Assembly: GCF_021134715.1 (NCBI RefSeq)
Contig: NC_060027.1
Span: 1,674,001-1,738,000, forward strand
Direction: 5' to 3'
DNA: 64,000 bases
Source of the DNA: Daphnia pulex
Lineage: Eukaryota > Arthropoda > Branchiopoda > Diplostraca > Daphniidae
Shown: one piece after another, positions 3,098 through 41,360 of the stretch
Numbering within the stretch: position 1 is the stretch's first letter
Layout: every line of letters starts with the position of its first letter
Notes under the pieces: model-generated
What the model saw: only the letters and a program-made list of their open reading frames with translations
Told to the model about the DNA's origin: nothing
Databases searched by the model: none
Translations under genes and position numbers: made by a program

Positions 3098-6000
3098 TTA
3101 TTTCAAGTCACCACTGGATCCGATTGACCATTCGCCGCGAATTTTTGTAATTCCTTGAAAATCTGTGAGATGGGAGCTCCTACTGTCTTCTCTTGCAATT
3201 TCATTCTGGGCGACGGCGTATTCTACGACACTTACCTAATAATATAAATGTGTGGTAACAACATAAGAATGAACTGTAGGTGAATTACTATAAAGGTCGA
3301 TTTATGAAAATAGAGAAATATGCTCGAGGGAATCATTGTTACAATGTGCTTAAAAAAACCCAATATCCTGTTTTTACCTTGCCACCGAATGAGGGGAATG
3401 TTAATTTGCAGTCAGGGACATCCGTAGACGAAGAAGACAACCACGACAAACGATAGTCCCATCTTTCATATTCTTCAACGTTGATGTAAACGGGTTGCCA
3501 ATTCTGAAATAACGTTGAATAGATTTGAATTGTTAGTACAATCAAATAACATTCCATTTTTATCCGTTCCGTTTTCATGTTTACCTCAGTTGCCCAGATG
3601 ATGAATTTCCTACGCGAGTCCGCTGATGCGAGAAACCGCCCGTCGGGTGAAAACGACAGCCAATTTACCATATTCGAATGTTGACTTAGAATTCTCGTCT
3701 TTTCCATAGAATCCAGCCGAGTCCAAATGACAATCCCCCCGTTGCCCAATCCACTGAATGAAAATCAAAATGAAAATGAAAAATGCGAATTGCTCTGCCC
3801 ATCCTCCTTGTCCATTCCTGCCGCGGGAAAAAATGAAACCACAATGTCTTCCTTCGAACACAAGGGAAAAAATGTTTGCGAGGGAAAAAGTGCGCAAACA
3901 AAAACTTTTTGCCTCCACACCCTCCTATTATACCCTCAGTATATACCCTCTATCCATTTGTCTTGCTTTTCTTGCGCAAGAAAAAGTGAATCAAGGAATT
4001 CATTTCGAGGCAAATATAAAAAAGTGGATGCAGCAGACTTCTTATAGTTCAATCCCATATTTCTCACAAAACCCCGTCCGTTGATCAACTCACCAAGCAA
4101 AATTGAAATTGTCGGCCGATTTCTTTGCCGCGTCCACTCCCTCGTCGTCCGATTGTTTCCCGTTTGGACGCCAAGCCAACCTATAACATCGGCCATCGAC
4201 CTTTGTGGCGTGAATGGGTTGGTCTCTGTCCATTGACCAAATCTATACGGAAAACGACAAGTTCAACATGACACGCCCATTCAACAAAAGAACAACGACA
4301 ATTTACCGTCATCCATCCGTTGTCTGAACAAGCGGCCAAACATTTCGTCCGTTCGTCCCAGGCCATGTCGAATACCGCACCCTTAATGAAATAACAGAGA
4401 ATAGATTATCGAGAATGTGCAATGACTTCACGTCAATGGGAAAAAAAAACTCACCTTCACGCGTTCATGTTGGAATAATCGTTTATCGAGTTTTTTGGCG
4501 AAATTCGTCGATTCGTCAATTTCCCAAATTTCAATGCCTTCGTTTAAGCCGATAGCGACACGATTCTCAGAGATCCACTCGAAACTCAAGATCGGATCCT
4601 CATATTCAATTGTGCAGAAATGAAATGACCGTTGGTCGACAGGGCAGGAATTGAAGAAAGAAACTTCTACATATCCGAACTAAAAACAAGAAAAAATTAA
4701 ATTGGGGGAAGAGACGCGGCCGTTTTAAGAGAAGGGAGGATGAGAAGATTCCGCCAATTCTTAATGATTTTGCTACAAAATAAAGTGAAATAACGTGAAA
4801 CTACATTAAACTTTCAAAAAAATGTCAACTTAAGAAATTGAAAACGAAAAAACCTCGAATCGCCATGATTGCAATCGGTTGCATTTTGTTCGTTTGGTTT
4901 TTGTCAATATTTTACCAGTTTAATTGAAAAGGTTGGTCGAATGTTTTGTAGGAAGAGAGGAAATCATGGAAAGAAACAACTTACTTCTCCGATTTCAAAA
5001 GTAGCGAAAACGTTTGGCCTGAAGGGATTCCACTCGATTTGATCCATCCGTTCGTCTAATTTTTTTTTAAAGAGAATTTCGCCACTTGGATAACTCCAAC
5101 AAACGATGCCATCTTGTTTGAAGTTGGCAGCCAATTGGGTCCCGTCCACCTAAACAAACAATTAAATAATAAATAAAAGTATTTGATTGAAATTTGAAAG
5201 AGATTCTGAAACGTTACGCATCAACTTTTTGATTGAATCTTGATTGAGAGGCCTCTCCAGGTCAAGTCAGGCTGTACAATTTCTATTTCACAATTCGAAA
5301 GACTCTACTTACATTCCATTCTATTGTTTTATATCTTTCGAAATGCTCAGGTTGAAGTTGAGTTTCCTTTTCCTTCCAATTTGAAAAAGGAATGGACGAA
5401 TTATCCGCAGATAAGAAAATCACTTTAGCATTAAAGCCGCAAGCGAGAACTAGTTCGGTCGGGTGGAAACGGGTAATGGAATGGCCCCTTTCCGATATTA
5501 ACCTCTCATATTTCTTAAATTGTCCTGTGCCGTTTAATGTAAATGTTAAATTTAAAAAAAAAAAAAAACTGATTTCTATTCAGTTCAAAGAAAATTTTTT
5601 ATTTACGTGATTCATATAATTTTGCTGTCAATTGTTTGATAACGTCGGGCAATGAGATTCTTTGCTCTTTCGGCTCTATCATTTTTCCAATCAGTTCGTA
5701 TAGGGCACGATCATCGCCTTGCAAATCTGTGATCGGGAAAATAGTGAGCAGCTCTTCGGTAAATACCAGCATGATGCAAATAACTATGAATAAAATACTA
5801 ACTTTGTTTCTGTTCGATAATAAGCGCTTTTGGCTTGTTATTTAAGACGTTGTTACTAATTTGCTTATTCGGATGCTTCTTCGGATCATCTATCACATTC
5901 ATAGTAGGTTCGTCAAACGGATGTCTACCGCGAGTCAGGAAGAAGAAAAAGACGCAGCCGGCAGCGAATGTGTCGCTTTGGATTGTTCCACGCGGAAGGT

Positions 6001-7724
6001 CATTTGGGCTTGTATTGTTCATCCAATGCTCCAAAATTTCGGGCGCCATCCACTTTAAAGTTCCTTTCAATACACTTTGCGTATATGACCCCTGAGGACT
6101 TGTTTTCTTGACAAATCCAAAATCGGACAATTTTATTTGAATGGGTGTCGTCATTGAGATGAGGATGTTGTCCGGTTTGACGTCGCGATGGACTAAACCT
6201 TGGGAGTGAATGTAGTTCAATCCATTGGTGATTTGATATAAAACTAGGCCATCTGACGGCAATTCCGGTCCGTTGTAATTATCATTGCAATAATCTTTCA
6301 GCGTCCCGGCACATAACTCGAGCACAAGGCATCTGCCTCTGCCAATAAAATTGAAAAGTCAATAAATGTTTCAAATAATAATTTTGAATTCTATTTAGTT
6401 ACGTTTTATCCCCTGAGTCATCGACGTGCAAAAGTTTCAGGACATTTTCGTGGTCCAACCGGAGATGTTCCTCCATTTCCCGTTTCTGTTCTGGTTTTAT
6501 TGCATCACCTGAAGGGACTTTTACTGCAACTGCATTTCCTTCGTACATTCCTCTATACACGACTCCGAATCCCCCCCTGCCGAGTTCGTTCTCCTTTTTC
6601 ATTTCGAATCTAACTGCAGAAAATTTAGAGTTACGCGACTGCCGTAAAATTTTAAAAAATTCATTCTCCAACAAACTTACGAGGAAGGGCCTTCATAAAA
6701 TGATCTTCGGCTATCATCAACCAATTTGTGCCGTCGGTTGGTGGATCTCCAATCATGTTTTTTATGGGCTCGTACGCAAATTCCCATGTTTCTTTTTCTT
6801 GTTGTATAGCTGTGAAGTGAACATAAACAGTAAATTAATTATTATTAAGATTAAGTAAAAGAAATACTTTTCAGGTTGACAGGATTTCGCTTTTTAATGT
6901 TTTCCAAGATTGACGACGAGTCGTCACCGAAGGGATGCACACCCCGTTTGAGGAAATAAAAACATATGCAACCTGCTGGAAATATATCTTGATTAGGTGT
7001 AGGGGTCTGGTTATTGTCGGTATTTCCATCTAATTTCCAATATTTCCTTAGACAAAGATCTTGTGGTTTCCCCATTTCCTCATCACATTGGGCACCGAAT
7101 TTGCTCAACCCGAACTCGGATAATTTGATCATCATCCGCACCGGCTGCGAGGAATCGATAAGAATTGTTCGGGGCGTCAAATTTCCATGTGAACATCGCA
7201 CTTTGTGAAGATACAAAAGCCCTTTGGCAATTTGGCAAAGAACTTGGGCGTCAGATGGCATCGGTCCTTTGTAAAAGCCTTTGCAAAACTGCTCCAATGT
7301 GGCGTCGTAACGTTCCAGAGCAAAATATCTGCAATATAAAATTAGGTGTTGATTTATCCATTAGCCTATATATATTTATATTGAAATAATCATTTTAAAA
7401 TAATCACCTCCATTCATCTATTTTTTGCTTTTCTCGCTTTTCTTCCTCTTTTTCTTCATAGCTAATAATTTTGAGGACATTTTCGTGTTTGATGGAATCC
7501 TTCTCTTGAGTATGTTTGTTGAAGATATCATTCCATTTATCATGACAATCTATTTTCTTAATCTTCCTCACTACAATTTCTTCTTTTGAATCCTCCGCCT
7601 TTTTGAAATATCCGCTGTACACCAACGAATCGCCCCACCCTTCGAAAAGTGGCTTTTTTCTACAATGGATGTTCTTCCCTTTGAAGAGAAGTTCCTCTTC
7701 CTCATGACGCAATAGGCGCTCCAT
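3098..7724 (-). CDS. Pseudokinase - IRE1-like kinase - WD40 fusion protein, 1010 aa, 14 exons
   Basis: Exons in transcript order: 7724-7408, 7328-6868, 6809-6681, 6613-6403, 6338-5803, 5726-5607, 5524-5313, 5149-4985, 4679-4455, 4381-4307, 4242-4094, 3753-3585, 3503-3378, 3235-3098. All borders are GT/AG, phases close and the total is 3033 nt. Residues about 30-300 form a degenerate kinase: HGNLTP replaces HRDxKPxN and SEFG replaces DFG. Residues about 313-590 form an apparently active kinase: GRGGFG, a VAVK lysine near 334, HRDVKPDN near 423, DFG near 445, and a WMAPE-type activation-loop end. It resembles the IRE1 kinase lobe (ELCAGTL, NGLNYIHS, AAGCVFFFFLTRGRHPF), but no KEN RNase domain follows. 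Residues about 592-1010 are WD40 repeats (IEWN, SFSPDGRFLASAD). The two halves meet at an 82-nt intron (5525-5606) using donor C|GTAAAT in phase 1. If that donor is skipped, the kinase ends 5 bases later at TAA. The start ATG at 7724 directly follows an in-frame TGA. Substrate and pathway are unknown. Confidence 0.8.
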
Positions 7725-8325: not shown

Positions 8326-10540
8326 TCAAGATCGAATGGAACTTCTTGATCGTTGCCGACTGCTGTGGCTCGGTCTCATTTCGGGCGGGATGACCTTCGG
8401 AGTGCCCAGAGGCGGTGGGGGGATGTTGCCGCCCGCCGTGTTGCTCCAATAGGAAACTTGAATCCGCGGGACCACGAAATTCGAATGCTGATGCGATGAT
8501 CGGCCCTGGTATTGCGATCGGTGGCGATCAAAAAGTTCGGCAACAAATCCAGAAGCTCCTCCACCAGCACCACCGGAACTGGTCGGTAAAACGGGCATCG
8601 AGGATCGCCTGGAAGGATCGCCGGGCAGTAAGACACTGGCGCTCATCACTCCGCTGCCAGTCAATTGAGATGCGACGCTGAAAGTCGATCCTTTATTGCT
8701 GGGCGGATCCGATCCTCCGCTGACGATGCGAATAGCTTTTTTCAAAGTATTCTTCACCTGGATTATAATTTGAAATTCTTTTAATTTAAACAAGTATAAA
8801 TTTCATTAGAATAAATGTCAATAACCCAAGAATCTTTGGTCTTGGAAGACGGGAGGAGAACGAGGGAGGATCGTTTGGAGAATTGCTGGAGACTGGGCTC
8901 GGATGAGGCCACCACTCCGCCGCCGTGATGGAAGGATTTCAATCCCAGTCCCGGATTGAGTTGCATCTTGTCCATGTACTTGTCGATGATTTCGACGCAT
9001 TTGCTGCGGCCCGTCAGTCGGGCCCATTCGACCGAACACAATCCCCGGCCGAAATCTCTCAGGACGGGCGAAGCGCCGGCCAATAGCAGCAGTCGAGTGC
9101 ACCGGACACGCCCCTGAAGCGAAGCTTTCATCAAAGCCTGTTGAAATGTAATTTCACAATTAATTTAATTTAATTCTTATCTAATAGGAAATGATTTACG
9201 GTTAGGCCGGCGTTGTTGCGGATGTCGATGGTCAGATTGGGACACAACGTGAGTAGACTGACGATATCGGCGTGACCTGCACGACATCTCGTGAATGTCT
9301 AATCAATTACAAATTGAAAGCGTTTGATTAAATTTCGTTATACCTGCTTGAGCGGCCAGGTGAAGGGCCGTGTTGCCTTCGTTATCCGCCAAATTCACGT
9401 CCAGTCCGGGTAATTTGACGAGTAGACGGGCGATGGGAACATTTCCCGTCATGGCCGCGTGTAACAAACTCGACTGATTTGGTAAAATAAAATTAATTCT
9501 CAATTAGCCACCATCTGTGTTGATTATAAAAATGTTTTATTTACTTTCCCAGTGGCATCGACGGCGTTGAGGCTCCTGGCTGGAACTTTTTCGTGATGGA
9601 GGGCGAGGTATCGTGACAGAGTCCCGACGTCACCGTCCTGGCACAATTTCAAGAGGCTGTGATCGACCAGCGACACGACGAATTGATTGAAAATCGCTGC
9701 CGGATGGCTGAACTGGTGGTGGTGGATGACTGGTGCTGTCCCTGCTGCTGGACTCATCACAGCCTCTGACGGACTTTGACTGGGCGAATTCAACTGGACG
9801 GGAATAGAGCCGATGGATTTGTTGGGCTGGCCAATCGAGTCGGACGGAAAGACCAGAGTTCCATGTCTAATATTTTCAATTCAATTGTAATCGAATCTAA
9901 TAGTCAATAATTAATGACAAATTTTAATTGAAATAGATTAAAACCGATAGTGAAGAGTGTCGTGATGTTGGCTGGATTTTTTCGGGCCGGTGGAGAGGAC
10001 GGGCGTGACGGGAATTTTGCGTCTGACGCCATTGGGCGACTCGAACGAAAAACTTTTGGACATCAAAACCGGTTCAGCCGGAATTGATTCCGGCAAATCT
10101 TTCATGTTGTTATTGTTGTTGTTGTGGTGATGGGTTCCAGCTGCTGCAAAAGGATCGTTGAGTGGGTGGTGGTGGTGGTTGTTTTTCACTTGAATTGGGG
10201 GATGAGGTAACGGCGTCATTACTTGACTAGCCTTGAAATCAATTACAATATCAATCAAAAATTCACAGAATTCATTTTGATAAATTCATTTGAAGAATTG
10301 TTGTTGTGTCATTACCTGTTGTTGTTGGTAGAGTTGAGCACTTTTGCTCCTGATGAGTGAATTCCTGGGAACGGGTGGCGGCTTATTGTTGTTGTTGTTG
10401 TTGTTGTTGTTTGGTGAGGACATGGTGGTGGTCGGCAATTGAGAAGCGGAAATGCTCCGGATGTAGGACGGTGAACGACTTCGGCCGGGAACCACCGGTG
10501 GCACGTCATTATTACCCAGACTGGATCTCTGTGCTGCCAT
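8326..10540 (-). CDS. Ankyrin-repeat protein, ANKRD33/ANKRD33B-like, 594 aa
   Basis: Seven exons: 10540-10316, 10231-9945, 9866-9545, 9473-9344, 9276-9200, 9137-8826, 8757-8326; phases close (1785 nt). The N terminus (about 240 residues) is disordered, Ser/Pro-rich, with runs of Asn and His. Then come about four ankyrin repeats: SSLLHAAMTGNVPIARLLVK, NTALHLAAQAGHADIVSLL, TALMKASLQGRVRCTRLLLL, and a last degenerate one with DFGRGLCSVEWARLTGR. The pattern TALMKA..QGR..C.R.L.LAGA followed by EWAR.TGR is what I recall from vertebrate ANKRD33/33B, which act as transcriptional co-regulators; the assignment rests on that block. The C-terminal 140 residues are Ser/Pro/Gly-rich without a recognised domain. 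One donor (exon 2, G|GTTTTA) is weak. The start was taken at ATG 10540, the first in-frame Met; the open frame upstream lacks another. Confidence 0.75.
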
Positions 10541-39330: not shown

Positions 39331-41360
39331 ATGGCTTTGGCGTCTAATGGTTAGTTTTATCTTTTTTGATGGCTGGAGTGTTAGTACAAATCTACACTTC
39401 TATGCTTCTATCTTCAACACATGCAGCTTCTTTCTGATTTTTTTTGCTCTTAAATTATAATGTTTGTCTTCTGAATATTTTAGACACATTTGAAGAAACT
39501 GTTAAGTTGATACATGAAAATTGCATCAATCGTTTTCATCCAACATTACCTGTTTTGGTTTCTGGATCAACTCACCTGACATTCTTTGATGCCAAAGATG
39601 GCATCACTCAATTTTCAAATTGGAATGAAAGGCAATGTAAACTTAAAGGAAATGTTGCTATATGCTCAATTGAATGGAATGTAAGTTATACAATTTATAT
39701 AATCGATTTGAGTAGCCTAGTGGTTTGCATGTTGGAAAATTCTTTCATGTCTTTCAGGTAGATGGAACAAAATTGGCTGCTGCAGTAGCTGATCCTAATC
39801 AGTTATTTGTAAATGATTGTGGTGACGAAAGTGGGGAAATAATTGTTTGGAATTATCCAACATGTGATATCCTCTTTCAACAGAAGCAATTCAAAGTAGT
39901 CCATGAAATTGAATGGAATCAATTTAGACAAGAAGTTTTTGCTACCTATAATATTGTAAGTTGGGTCAAATATGATCTCATTCTTTTTATTTAAAAAAAT
40001 AAAAATAAAATCTTCATTCAGGGTGACCCACTTGTGTCACTATGGACCACCAAAGATCTGAAAAGAAACCTTTTCTACGTATTTGATTTTGATCGTGAAA
40101 ATCGTTTTCGTGAATTTATCATGAAGGTAAAGTGGATCTCTGAAAGCGAAGTTGCTCTTGGACTCAACAACGGCACGATTGAGATTTATCGAATTAGTGA
40201 AAGCCATCCTGTGACTGCTCCACAAATAACGAGAAAATTAAAACATGATGTGAGTTATTTACTGAATTTTCTGGGATAATTTATTACTCTAACAAAGTTG
40301 TTCTTGGTTTGCGTATGATGAATGAAGCGTGTCGTTAGAGATATGAAATGGAGCTGTACGACGCAATATTTAGCCTCTTTTTCATGGGATAATACGATCA
40401 AGGTACGTAATGCTATTCTTGATGTCATTTAATAAATAACGAACTGAATTAACAGGTGTCACTCATTTATTTTTGCTCAACACAATTTGCAGATTTGGTC
40501 TGTGGACAACGGCCTTAACGGGGAACTTATCCACGGATTACATGTGAACTCCAGTTGTTACATTTACAGTTTTGCTTGGCGTACAAACAGGAAAACATAC
40601 GCCGAAATTGACATAGAAAGAGAATCACCGGAAAACTTCATAGTAGCTTGGTGACTTTTGATATGCGTAGTTTCTTCTGTTGTTATACTCATCATAAGTT
40701 TTGCACAGTGGATTGAGACACGAGATCACCCGTAAGAAGTCATCCAATGGGTCGACAGGACCGATTGTTATCTGGAATCCTTTAGAAAGAGACGAGTCTA
40801 AACAGCAACGAATCCTTGAAAAGCACAAATGTTCGGTTTCCTCGCTTGCCTTTTCTCCTGATGGACAATTTCTTGCGTCGTCGGATGCAATAGATGTTAT
40901 CATCTGGTCGACCGAGGTAATTTACAAATTAATATTACGCCATCCAATTTTAATGATTGGATTTCGAAACCAGAAAGTTTAGAATTTGTAAAATGTATGT
41001 TGTGAACTAAACATGGTTTATTTGTTTTTGTTTTCAATCAAACTATTATTAGACTTGGATGCCCGTTTTTGTCTCGCAGTATAACAAATTTACTCAAGAT
41101 CAGCTCTTGAAAAGTCGGCCTTTGTTTAATTGTCGGTTGTCTTGGATGGCCTTGGGCTCAACAACTGCGGGCGGTGTGAACAAATTGACTTACTCTTCAA
41201 TCGATAATAAGGTAAGTCTTTTAACCATGGGAATACATGAATCATTCTTTGATATTTCCCGAAATTTGTCTTATTGGATTTTTAGATTCATGTGTTTGAA
41301 TGTGTCGGCGCAGAAACATCACGTTTCAAACACAAGAGGGCTAAGAGGGCTAGAAATTGA
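39331..41360 (+). CDS. WD40-repeat protein, TBL1-like, 438 aa
   Basis: Nine exons: 39331-39349, 39484-39680, 39758-39955, 40022-40249, 40328-40402, 40493-40650, 40709-40916, 41053-41211, 41286-41360 (1317 nt, phases close). The start is the short exon MALASN. WD40 blades are visible as IEWNVDGTKLAAAV, EIIVWNYP, IEWNQFR, MKWSCTTQYLAS, IWSVDNG, LAFSPDGQFLASSD and VIIWSTE; about six or seven blades. The wording is closest to the TBL1/TBL1XR1 group, but the LisH and F-box-like N terminus of that group is absent. From the second exon on it is a paralog of the C-terminal half of the fusion protein at 3098-5524, with every exon boundary in the same phase and one exon of identical length (75 nt). The C terminus is very basic (FKHKRAKRARN), a possible nuclear signal that the fusion lacks. 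Confidence 0.87.

Follow-up and report, generated by a model that had tools for sequence, protein, structure and literature searches.

Do the minus-strand exons at positions 7724–3098 of a 64,000-nucleotide (nt) stretch of Daphnia pulex DNA (the window; bases 1,674,001–1,738,000 of contig C11) encode a single protein, in which a pseudokinase and an IRE1-like kinase are joined to a WD40 propeller, or do they belong to two adjacent genes? In a homology-based gene model, 14 exons with GT–AG as the sole intron type splice to one open frame of 1010 residues, which comprises a pseudokinase (residues 1–303), a second kinase (304–591) and a WD40 propeller with its tail (593–1010). As the first-pass annotation had described, the exon containing the end of the kinase C-lobe (exon 6, 5607–5726) ends in phase 1, with CAC followed by the donor GTAAAT before a stop, while the first WD40 exon (exon 7, 5313–5524) is also in phase 1, is preceded by TTAAACGGCACAG with a long T tract further upstream, and has neither a start codon of its own nor an ATG nearby. 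The intervening intron (5525–5606) is 82 nt long, a normal size in this gene model, whose 12 other introns span 58–340 nt.

The kinase–WD40 junction and its paralogues

The window junction alone could be that of two genes: a pseudokinase–kinase gene ending at the TAA in positions 5599–5601, by which the kinase domain is complete and which is overlapped by an AATAAA, and a WD40 gene that has a start of its own. The paralogues, whose domain order was established by tblastn over 200 kb of DNA from the same genome plus the window, decide for fusion. The order pseudokinase–kinase–WD40 is also found at C10:15088k, C11:1380k and C11:1402k, and the order kinase–WD40 at C11:961k, C11:1442k, C11:5177k and C11:5272k; C11:1388k consists of a pseudokinase, a damaged middle and a WD40 part. 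The C10 paralogue is 55% identical to the window protein over 930 aligned residues. The junction is shared with these eight further loci and contains, at seven of them, an intron of 58–74 nt that is likewise in phase 1 (C10, 69; 1380k, 74; 1388k, 73; 1402k, 69; 1442k, 69; 5177k, 63; and 5272k, 58 nt). Together with the window, all eight junction introns are in phase 1, and the gap is held at 58–82 nt even though the intron sequence changes. When retained, the intron contains an in-frame stop in seven of the eight loci, AATAAA in only three, and no ATG in six, the 82-nt intron of the window among them.

At C11:961k, the intron is replaced by 51 in-frame bases (a multiple of three), still starting with GTAAAT, and a single uninterrupted translation runs from the kinase C-lobe through the first WD40 exon. 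In a BLASTP comparison with the C10 paralogue both sides of this translation align (48/126 identical residues), with the main gap at the junction, and with the window segment only the WD40 side was aligned (32/72). The uninterrupted frame at 961k, the conserved gap size and the general lack of an ATG in it make two adjacent genes highly improbable, in spite of the short ATG exon that, by eye, precedes the same phase-1 intron in stand-alone WD40 paralogues. The kinase–propeller fusion is therefore strongly supported by the sequence comparisons, in agreement with the single 1010-residue protein first proposed for this locus: the gene model is clean, and the junction is kept in old paralogues and predicted to be exonic in one. 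Separate WD40 transcripts with a first exon of their own, named in the first-pass annotation as the counter-case, have a parallel in kind in those stand-alone paralogues, but at the window locus there is no ATG between the kinase and the WD40 part from which they could start.

A single locus could also yield both forms, with splicing leading to the 1010-residue fusion and intron retention, or polyadenylation within the 82-nt intron, leading to a kinase-only form of 593 residues. The retained intron reads RK-stop with AATAAA in the window and in 1380k, and retention at 5177k would stay in frame; however, the stop and the AATAAA are not conserved in place, with AATAAA in 3/8 introns and read-through open in 1/8, and we regard this dual output as rather unlikely.

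The first WD40 exon has at least 25 matches in the genome (133.2 Mb in 13 contigs) that start at or before residue 20 of the query, and 21 of these 25 places were examined. In eight of them, the exon immediately upstream in the same orientation is a C-lobe exon from this kinase family, and the pairing is not a chance one; in a ninth (1388k), the pseudokinase and the junction remain but the kinase is gone; and the remaining 12 have no kinase C-lobe match directly upstream. The upstream sequence was read for nine of these 12 stand-alone WD40s and, by eye, at least four of them (1488k, 1479k, 1435k and window 39489–40916) begin with a short ATG exon followed by the same phase-1 intron; in the last one, on the plus strand of the window, the short first exon reads MALASN. 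Therefore, it is likely that the fusion originated when the short ATG exon of a WD40 gene was replaced by the last exon of a kinase gene. In phylogenetic trees, nine fused WD40s are on one side of a branch (support 81/72), a branch with support 79/91 likewise has seven fused kinases to one side, and the five pseudokinases group in a single clade (100/100). These trees are consistent with a single fusion event, bearing in mind that the fused groups are moderately supported and that 5177k and 1388k are long branches in the kinase tree. The family probably arose once, when an IRE1-class kinase gene lacking the KEN RNase was joined to a WD40 gene through a phase-1 intron.

Spliced models free of stops were obtained for six loci (window, C10, 961k, 1380k, 1402k and 1442k) using an aligner that is built to avoid stops. 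A start codon begins the models of the window, 1380k and 1402k, and a candidate start was seen by eye in 961k; the models of C10 and 1442k are without an established start, the C-termini of several paralogue models are incomplete, and in 1380k and 1402k the aligner added one extra intron in the pseudokinase, near EFG.

Two loci show other states of these parts. In C11:1387143–1393874, which corresponds to 1388k, the kinase between the pseudokinase and the WD40 part is replaced by unrelated sequence, including a stretch that by eye is like the 3′ end of the ankyrin gene beside the window locus (window 8326–8802). Upstream of C11:1457361, on the minus strand, a stand-alone WD40 gene begins with an exon that, also by eye, is like the start of the N-lobe of an IRE1-like kinase, as if the rest of the kinase had been deleted.

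The propeller and its predicted binding face

The WD40 part is encoded in exons 7 to 14. Exons 8 (4985–5149), 9 (4455–4679), 10 (4307–4381) and 11 (4094–4242) continue the WD40 sequence; exon 12 (3585–3753) contains the best canonical repeat, HSNMVNWLSFSPDG; exon 13 (3378–3503) encodes the last blade; and exon 14 (3098–3235) encodes the last strand, the tail and the stop codon. Residues 593–1010 match WD40-type families in a Pfam scan that covered the three parts of the protein and, for this part, the best 25 of 30 families. Eight strand-a anchors could be placed by hand, and the propeller probably has eight blades. A search of the PDB with a profile of six propeller sequences retrieved first a highly repetitive WD-40 protein and four WRAP-T chains, and then TBL1XR1 (expectation value (E) 1.4e-31), the best eukaryotic structure family; the propeller of the bacterial kinase PkwA (5yzv) was also matched.

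Interaction residues of WD40 propellers lie at three positions per blade of the top face, R1, R1-2 and D-1, according to PMC3419727. Using the window protein, we located these sites relative to its strand-a and Trp anchors, which resulted in 16 R1/R1-2 columns and five D-1 columns. In five close fused paralogues (window, 1380k, 1388k, 1402k and 1442k), the number of distinct residues per column averages 3.88 at the R sites and 3.60 at D-1, versus 1.78 elsewhere, with a permutation p of 5e-5 for R1, R1-2 and D-1 together, the minimum possible with 20,000 draws. The values for six fused proteins are 4.44 and 4.00 versus 2.22 elsewhere (p 5e-5). Conversely, six close stand-alone paralogues show 2.00 at the R sites, 1.25 at D-1 and 1.85 elsewhere (p 0.61).

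The same contrast was found at the codon level, using a two-class likelihood model fitted with our own code to ungapped MAFFT columns. For the five close fused paralogues, the maximum likelihood (ML) estimate of the nonsynonymous to synonymous rate ratio (omega) is 6.5 at the 21 top-face sites versus 0.88 elsewhere. When the set is restricted to the ten R sites in blades 3–7, whose alignment is free of ambiguity, omega is 8.5 versus 0.95, with twice the log-likelihood difference from omega 1 being 76, and omega rises to 9.2 with 1388k dropped. Five site sets shifted by -3, -1, +1, +3 and +4 positions gave omega values of 0.56–1.57, none of them significant; a shift by 2 was left out because it overlaps the top-face set itself. 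In the control of six stand-alone paralogues, omega is 0.43 versus 0.45 with the 21-site rule (16 usable sites) and 0.74 versus 0.44 in blades 3–7 (eight usable sites, p 0.10). An earlier pairwise spliced alignment, in which some paralogues had residues of blades 1, 2 and 8 out of place, had given 5.5 versus 0.83 by ML and 1.90 versus 0.65 by counting for the fused copies, and 0.50 versus 0.54 and 0.30 versus 0.48 for stand-alone controls. Together, these comparisons indicate that the predicted binding face diverges among close fused paralogues and not among close stand-alone ones. The variable sites are the positions that touch ligands in other WD40 proteins, as described in PMC3419727.

This divergence also bears on what the propeller does. 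The label TBL1-like, given in the first-pass annotation, holds in that no solved eukaryotic structure is closer to the propeller profile than TBL1XR1, but it is a nearest-neighbour label only; five LisH matches were found in the genome, none at the window locus or at the fused loci, the sole one near a WD40 match being below the cut-off, at C11:3230.8k. No finding supports the co-repressor role suggested by the same comparison, and a TBL1-like scaffold with an attached kinase, acting on chromatin, is very unlikely, given the lack of LisH and a predicted binding face that diverges between paralogues and is not conserved. As a separate observation, C11:3228971–3230847 (minus strand) has a weak WD40 match (E 3.6e-4) and, 1.5 kb upstream on the same strand, the sub-cutoff LisH match (E 0.19), and it is perhaps the true TBL1 gene.

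A parallel to the selection pattern is found in the fungal NACHT–WD40 recognition proteins HET-D, HET-E and HNWD. In HET-E/HET-D propellers, PMC1805685 places positively selected codons at positions 7, 9, 25 and 27, with 8 and 26 conserved, on the top face. Both systems share diversifying selection at paired top-face sites flanking a conserved residue, although the fungal proteins carry a NACHT domain where kinases are found here, and their repeats evolve in concert.

Kinase domains and proposed function

The pseudokinase starts in exon 1 (7408–7724), with the start codon and the N-lobe (Pfam Pkinase E 1.8e-15 over residues 1–303), followed by the C-lobe in exon 2 (6868–7328) and by its end and a linker in exon 3 (6681–6809). 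It contains VVRK, and has HGN in place of HRD and EFG in place of DFG. The second kinase has its N-lobe in exon 4 (6403–6613), with the glycine loop GRGGFG and VAVK, and its core in exon 5 (5803–6338; Pfam Pkinase E 4.1e-42), with HRD, DFG and APE intact. In a motif table, six of seven fused kinases keep the K, HRD, DFG and APE motifs, whereas the Asp of HRD is lost in four of five pseudokinases and that of DFG in all five. By the Nei–Gojobori method (NG86), the pseudokinases of window, 1380k and 1402k have pairwise dN/dS ratios of 0.34–0.47; with 1442k added to these close paralogues, the ratio is 0.48–0.70 in the kinase and 0.72–0.99 in the propeller. The kinase and pseudokinase parts are thus under constraint.

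In phmmer searches against the PDB, IRE1 is the nearest solved family of the kinase (E 1.6e-27), one chain with two copies of the EGFR kinase being ahead of it in summed, not per-domain, score, and IRE1 chains are the top match of the pseudokinase (E 7.9e-15). The AAGCVFFFFLTRGRHPF segment resembles that of IRE1, which is seen in the phmmer alignment of the pseudokinase. The description of the kinase as IRE1-like thus stands as far as the nearest structures go, but it is one of similarity only, with no KEN RNase attached: KEN is absent from the 1010-residue model, in which the WD40 exons follow the kinase. A KEN domain kept somewhere in the kinase–WD40 family was ruled out, since the five KEN matches of the genome, at C1:1957k, C4:1983k and, below the cut-off, C6:1443k, include none on C10 or C11. 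Residues 1–303 matched two kinase families and had one chance-level match in Pfam, with no luminal sensor domain or ankyrin repeats.

With moderate confidence, we propose that the locus encodes one fused protein of about 1010 residues, from a small paralogous family, in which a recognition propeller would control an IRE1-class kinase. The propeller would be the recognition part, and its ligand, probably a protein or peptide, would differ between family members or keep changing. Ligand binding may draw kinase domains into contact, allowing trans-phosphorylation by the active kinase in the manner of IRE1, and the pseudokinase may serve as an allosteric brake or dimer partner, like JH2 in JAKs; by this analogy, it would regulate the kinase. 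Because the KEN RNase is absent, the output would be phosphorylation and not RNA cleavage.

Several observations weigh against this reading. At 961k, the spliced aligner preferred a 63-nt GT–AG intron over the continuous exon; 63 is a multiple of three and the protein would be fused either way, and we favour a continuous exon, since GEFQSV at the end of the stretch matches GKFKEV of the C10 paralogue. Two fused copies look degraded (5177k is without APE and 5272k has stops in the kinase N-lobe), a third (1388k) has lost its kinase, and the pseudokinase of this third copy retains the D of the motif equivalent to HRD (HGD). The recurring variable columns of the propeller were noticed first and the published top-face rule was applied second. 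Four distant stand-alone WD40s also vary more at the top face (R 3.54 and D-1 3.40 versus 2.50; p 5e-5), and the effect is therefore not unique to fused members at large distance. The p values of the codon fits presuppose that paralogues share one simple synonymous rate and have not recombined, and their size is not to be taken as literal. The rest of the propeller, with omega about 0.9 by ML and 0.65 by counting, is under weak constraint. Finally, the sibling kinases fused to other domains, described below, may mean that this kinase is simply promiscuous.

The three broken copies and the omega of about 0.9 over most of the propeller would also fit a decaying or neutral chimera without function, kept by recent tandem duplication. 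Such a chimera appears quite unlikely, however, in view of the open spliced models at six loci, with kinase-domain identity down to 43% (the aligner's avoidance of stops applying here too), the constraint on both kinase parts, and an omega well above 1 at structurally defined sites, which is not a neutral pattern.

Returning to a propeller-controlled kinase, the parts of the protein have individual counterparts in known systems. IRE1 (ERN1) and RNase L are comparable in their kinase, with IRE1 being the nearest solved family for both kinase domains; here there is no KEN RNase and no luminal sensor in the Pfam scan, the kinase is in tandem with a pseudokinase, and the propeller takes the place of KEN. 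LRRK2, an animal protein with Roc-COR-kinase-WD40 organization, likewise has a kinase directly before a C-terminal propeller, but the window protein has no Roc-COR or LRR match in the Pfam scan and has a pseudokinase, and the kinase class differs from that of LRRK2. JAK and GCN2 are tandem pseudokinase–kinase proteins, with the pseudokinase directly before the active kinase, as is the case here for a first domain with broken HGN/EFG motifs and a second with HRD/DFG intact; they differ in that both domains of the window protein are nearest to IRE1, with no FERM, SH2 or RWD match (nor NACHT) in the Pfam scan. The plant protein SPA1, which acts in light signalling, also combines a kinase-like domain and WD40 repeats in one chain, although with a coiled coil between them. 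PkwA-type proteins, with a Ser/Thr kinase and WD40 repeats in one chain, are bacterial, and are not known to contain a pseudokinase. According to PMC5587647, many of the genes with WD40 repeats in Cyanobacteria and Planctomycetes also encode a kinase domain within the one protein, an association far less frequent in eukaryotes.

Searches of the open-licence literature revealed no kinase–WD40 fusion with an IRE1-class kinase or with a diversifying binding face and, in titles and the openings of abstracts, no description of a kinase–WD40 family in Daphnia. The diversifying predicted binding face on a fused kinase–propeller is the new element here. A role in immunity fits the selection pattern, nothing more, and is a guess. 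More specifically, and tentatively, these proteins could be intracellular recognition receptors of crustaceans, having an IRE1-class tandem kinase where NACHT or TIR domains sit in others, and a propeller under diversifying selection that would read parasite or self/non-self targets; we hold this possible rather than probable. If true, propeller receptors linked to kinases would have evolved in an animal and would bear the selection signature known from fungal allorecognition proteins, and the IRE1 kinase fold could be uncoupled from RNA cleavage to serve again as a shuffled module for signalling. Daphnia is among the main models in which host–parasite coevolution is studied, and the gene cluster would be directly testable against parasite resistance.

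Other fusions of the kinase and neighbouring genes

The genome contains at least 142 exon-level matches to the kinase at E ≤1e-5, not each shown to be IRE1-class, many of them on C3 and C11. In four siblings of the C11 cluster, all on the minus strand (C11:1430264–1431187, 1437285–1438223, 1452198–1453154 and 1459270–1460301), the IRE1-like kinase C-lobe is followed, with no break in the reading frame, by a complete alpha-kinase domain (PF02816), resulting in a predicted fusion of a canonical and an atypical kinase. The alpha-kinase match has Pfam E values of 7e-48 to 2e-51 in the three siblings that were scanned, and the fourth was matched in the genome search; six of the ten alpha-kinase matches of the genome lie outside the C11 cluster. 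The propeller is thus one of at least two predicted C-terminal partners of this kinase. Additionally, at C11:1373249–1375123 (minus strand), an IRE1-like kinase is closely followed by an open reading frame (ORF) for a RhoGAP domain (PF00620, E 2.8e-51), and a phase-1 join between them looks possible.

A HEPN (Swt1) effector near these kinases, an idea taken from PMC3710099, was rejected, since PF18731 has a single sub-cutoff match in the genome, on C5 (E 0.018). This contrasts with the 46 Swt1-type HEPN copies reported for Daphnia in the same source, a difference to which a mismatch of the Pfam model or of lineage may contribute.

The locus is flanked in the window by an ankyrin-repeat gene, upstream and on the minus strand (8326–10285), identified from one exon (Ank E 5.3e-9), two other ORFs having no match when scanned. 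The neighbour on the other side, on the plus strand (858–1816), resembles the end of a MAGUK-type gene that encodes the guanylate kinase domain (Guanylate_kin E 1.1e-4, below the Pfam cut-off).

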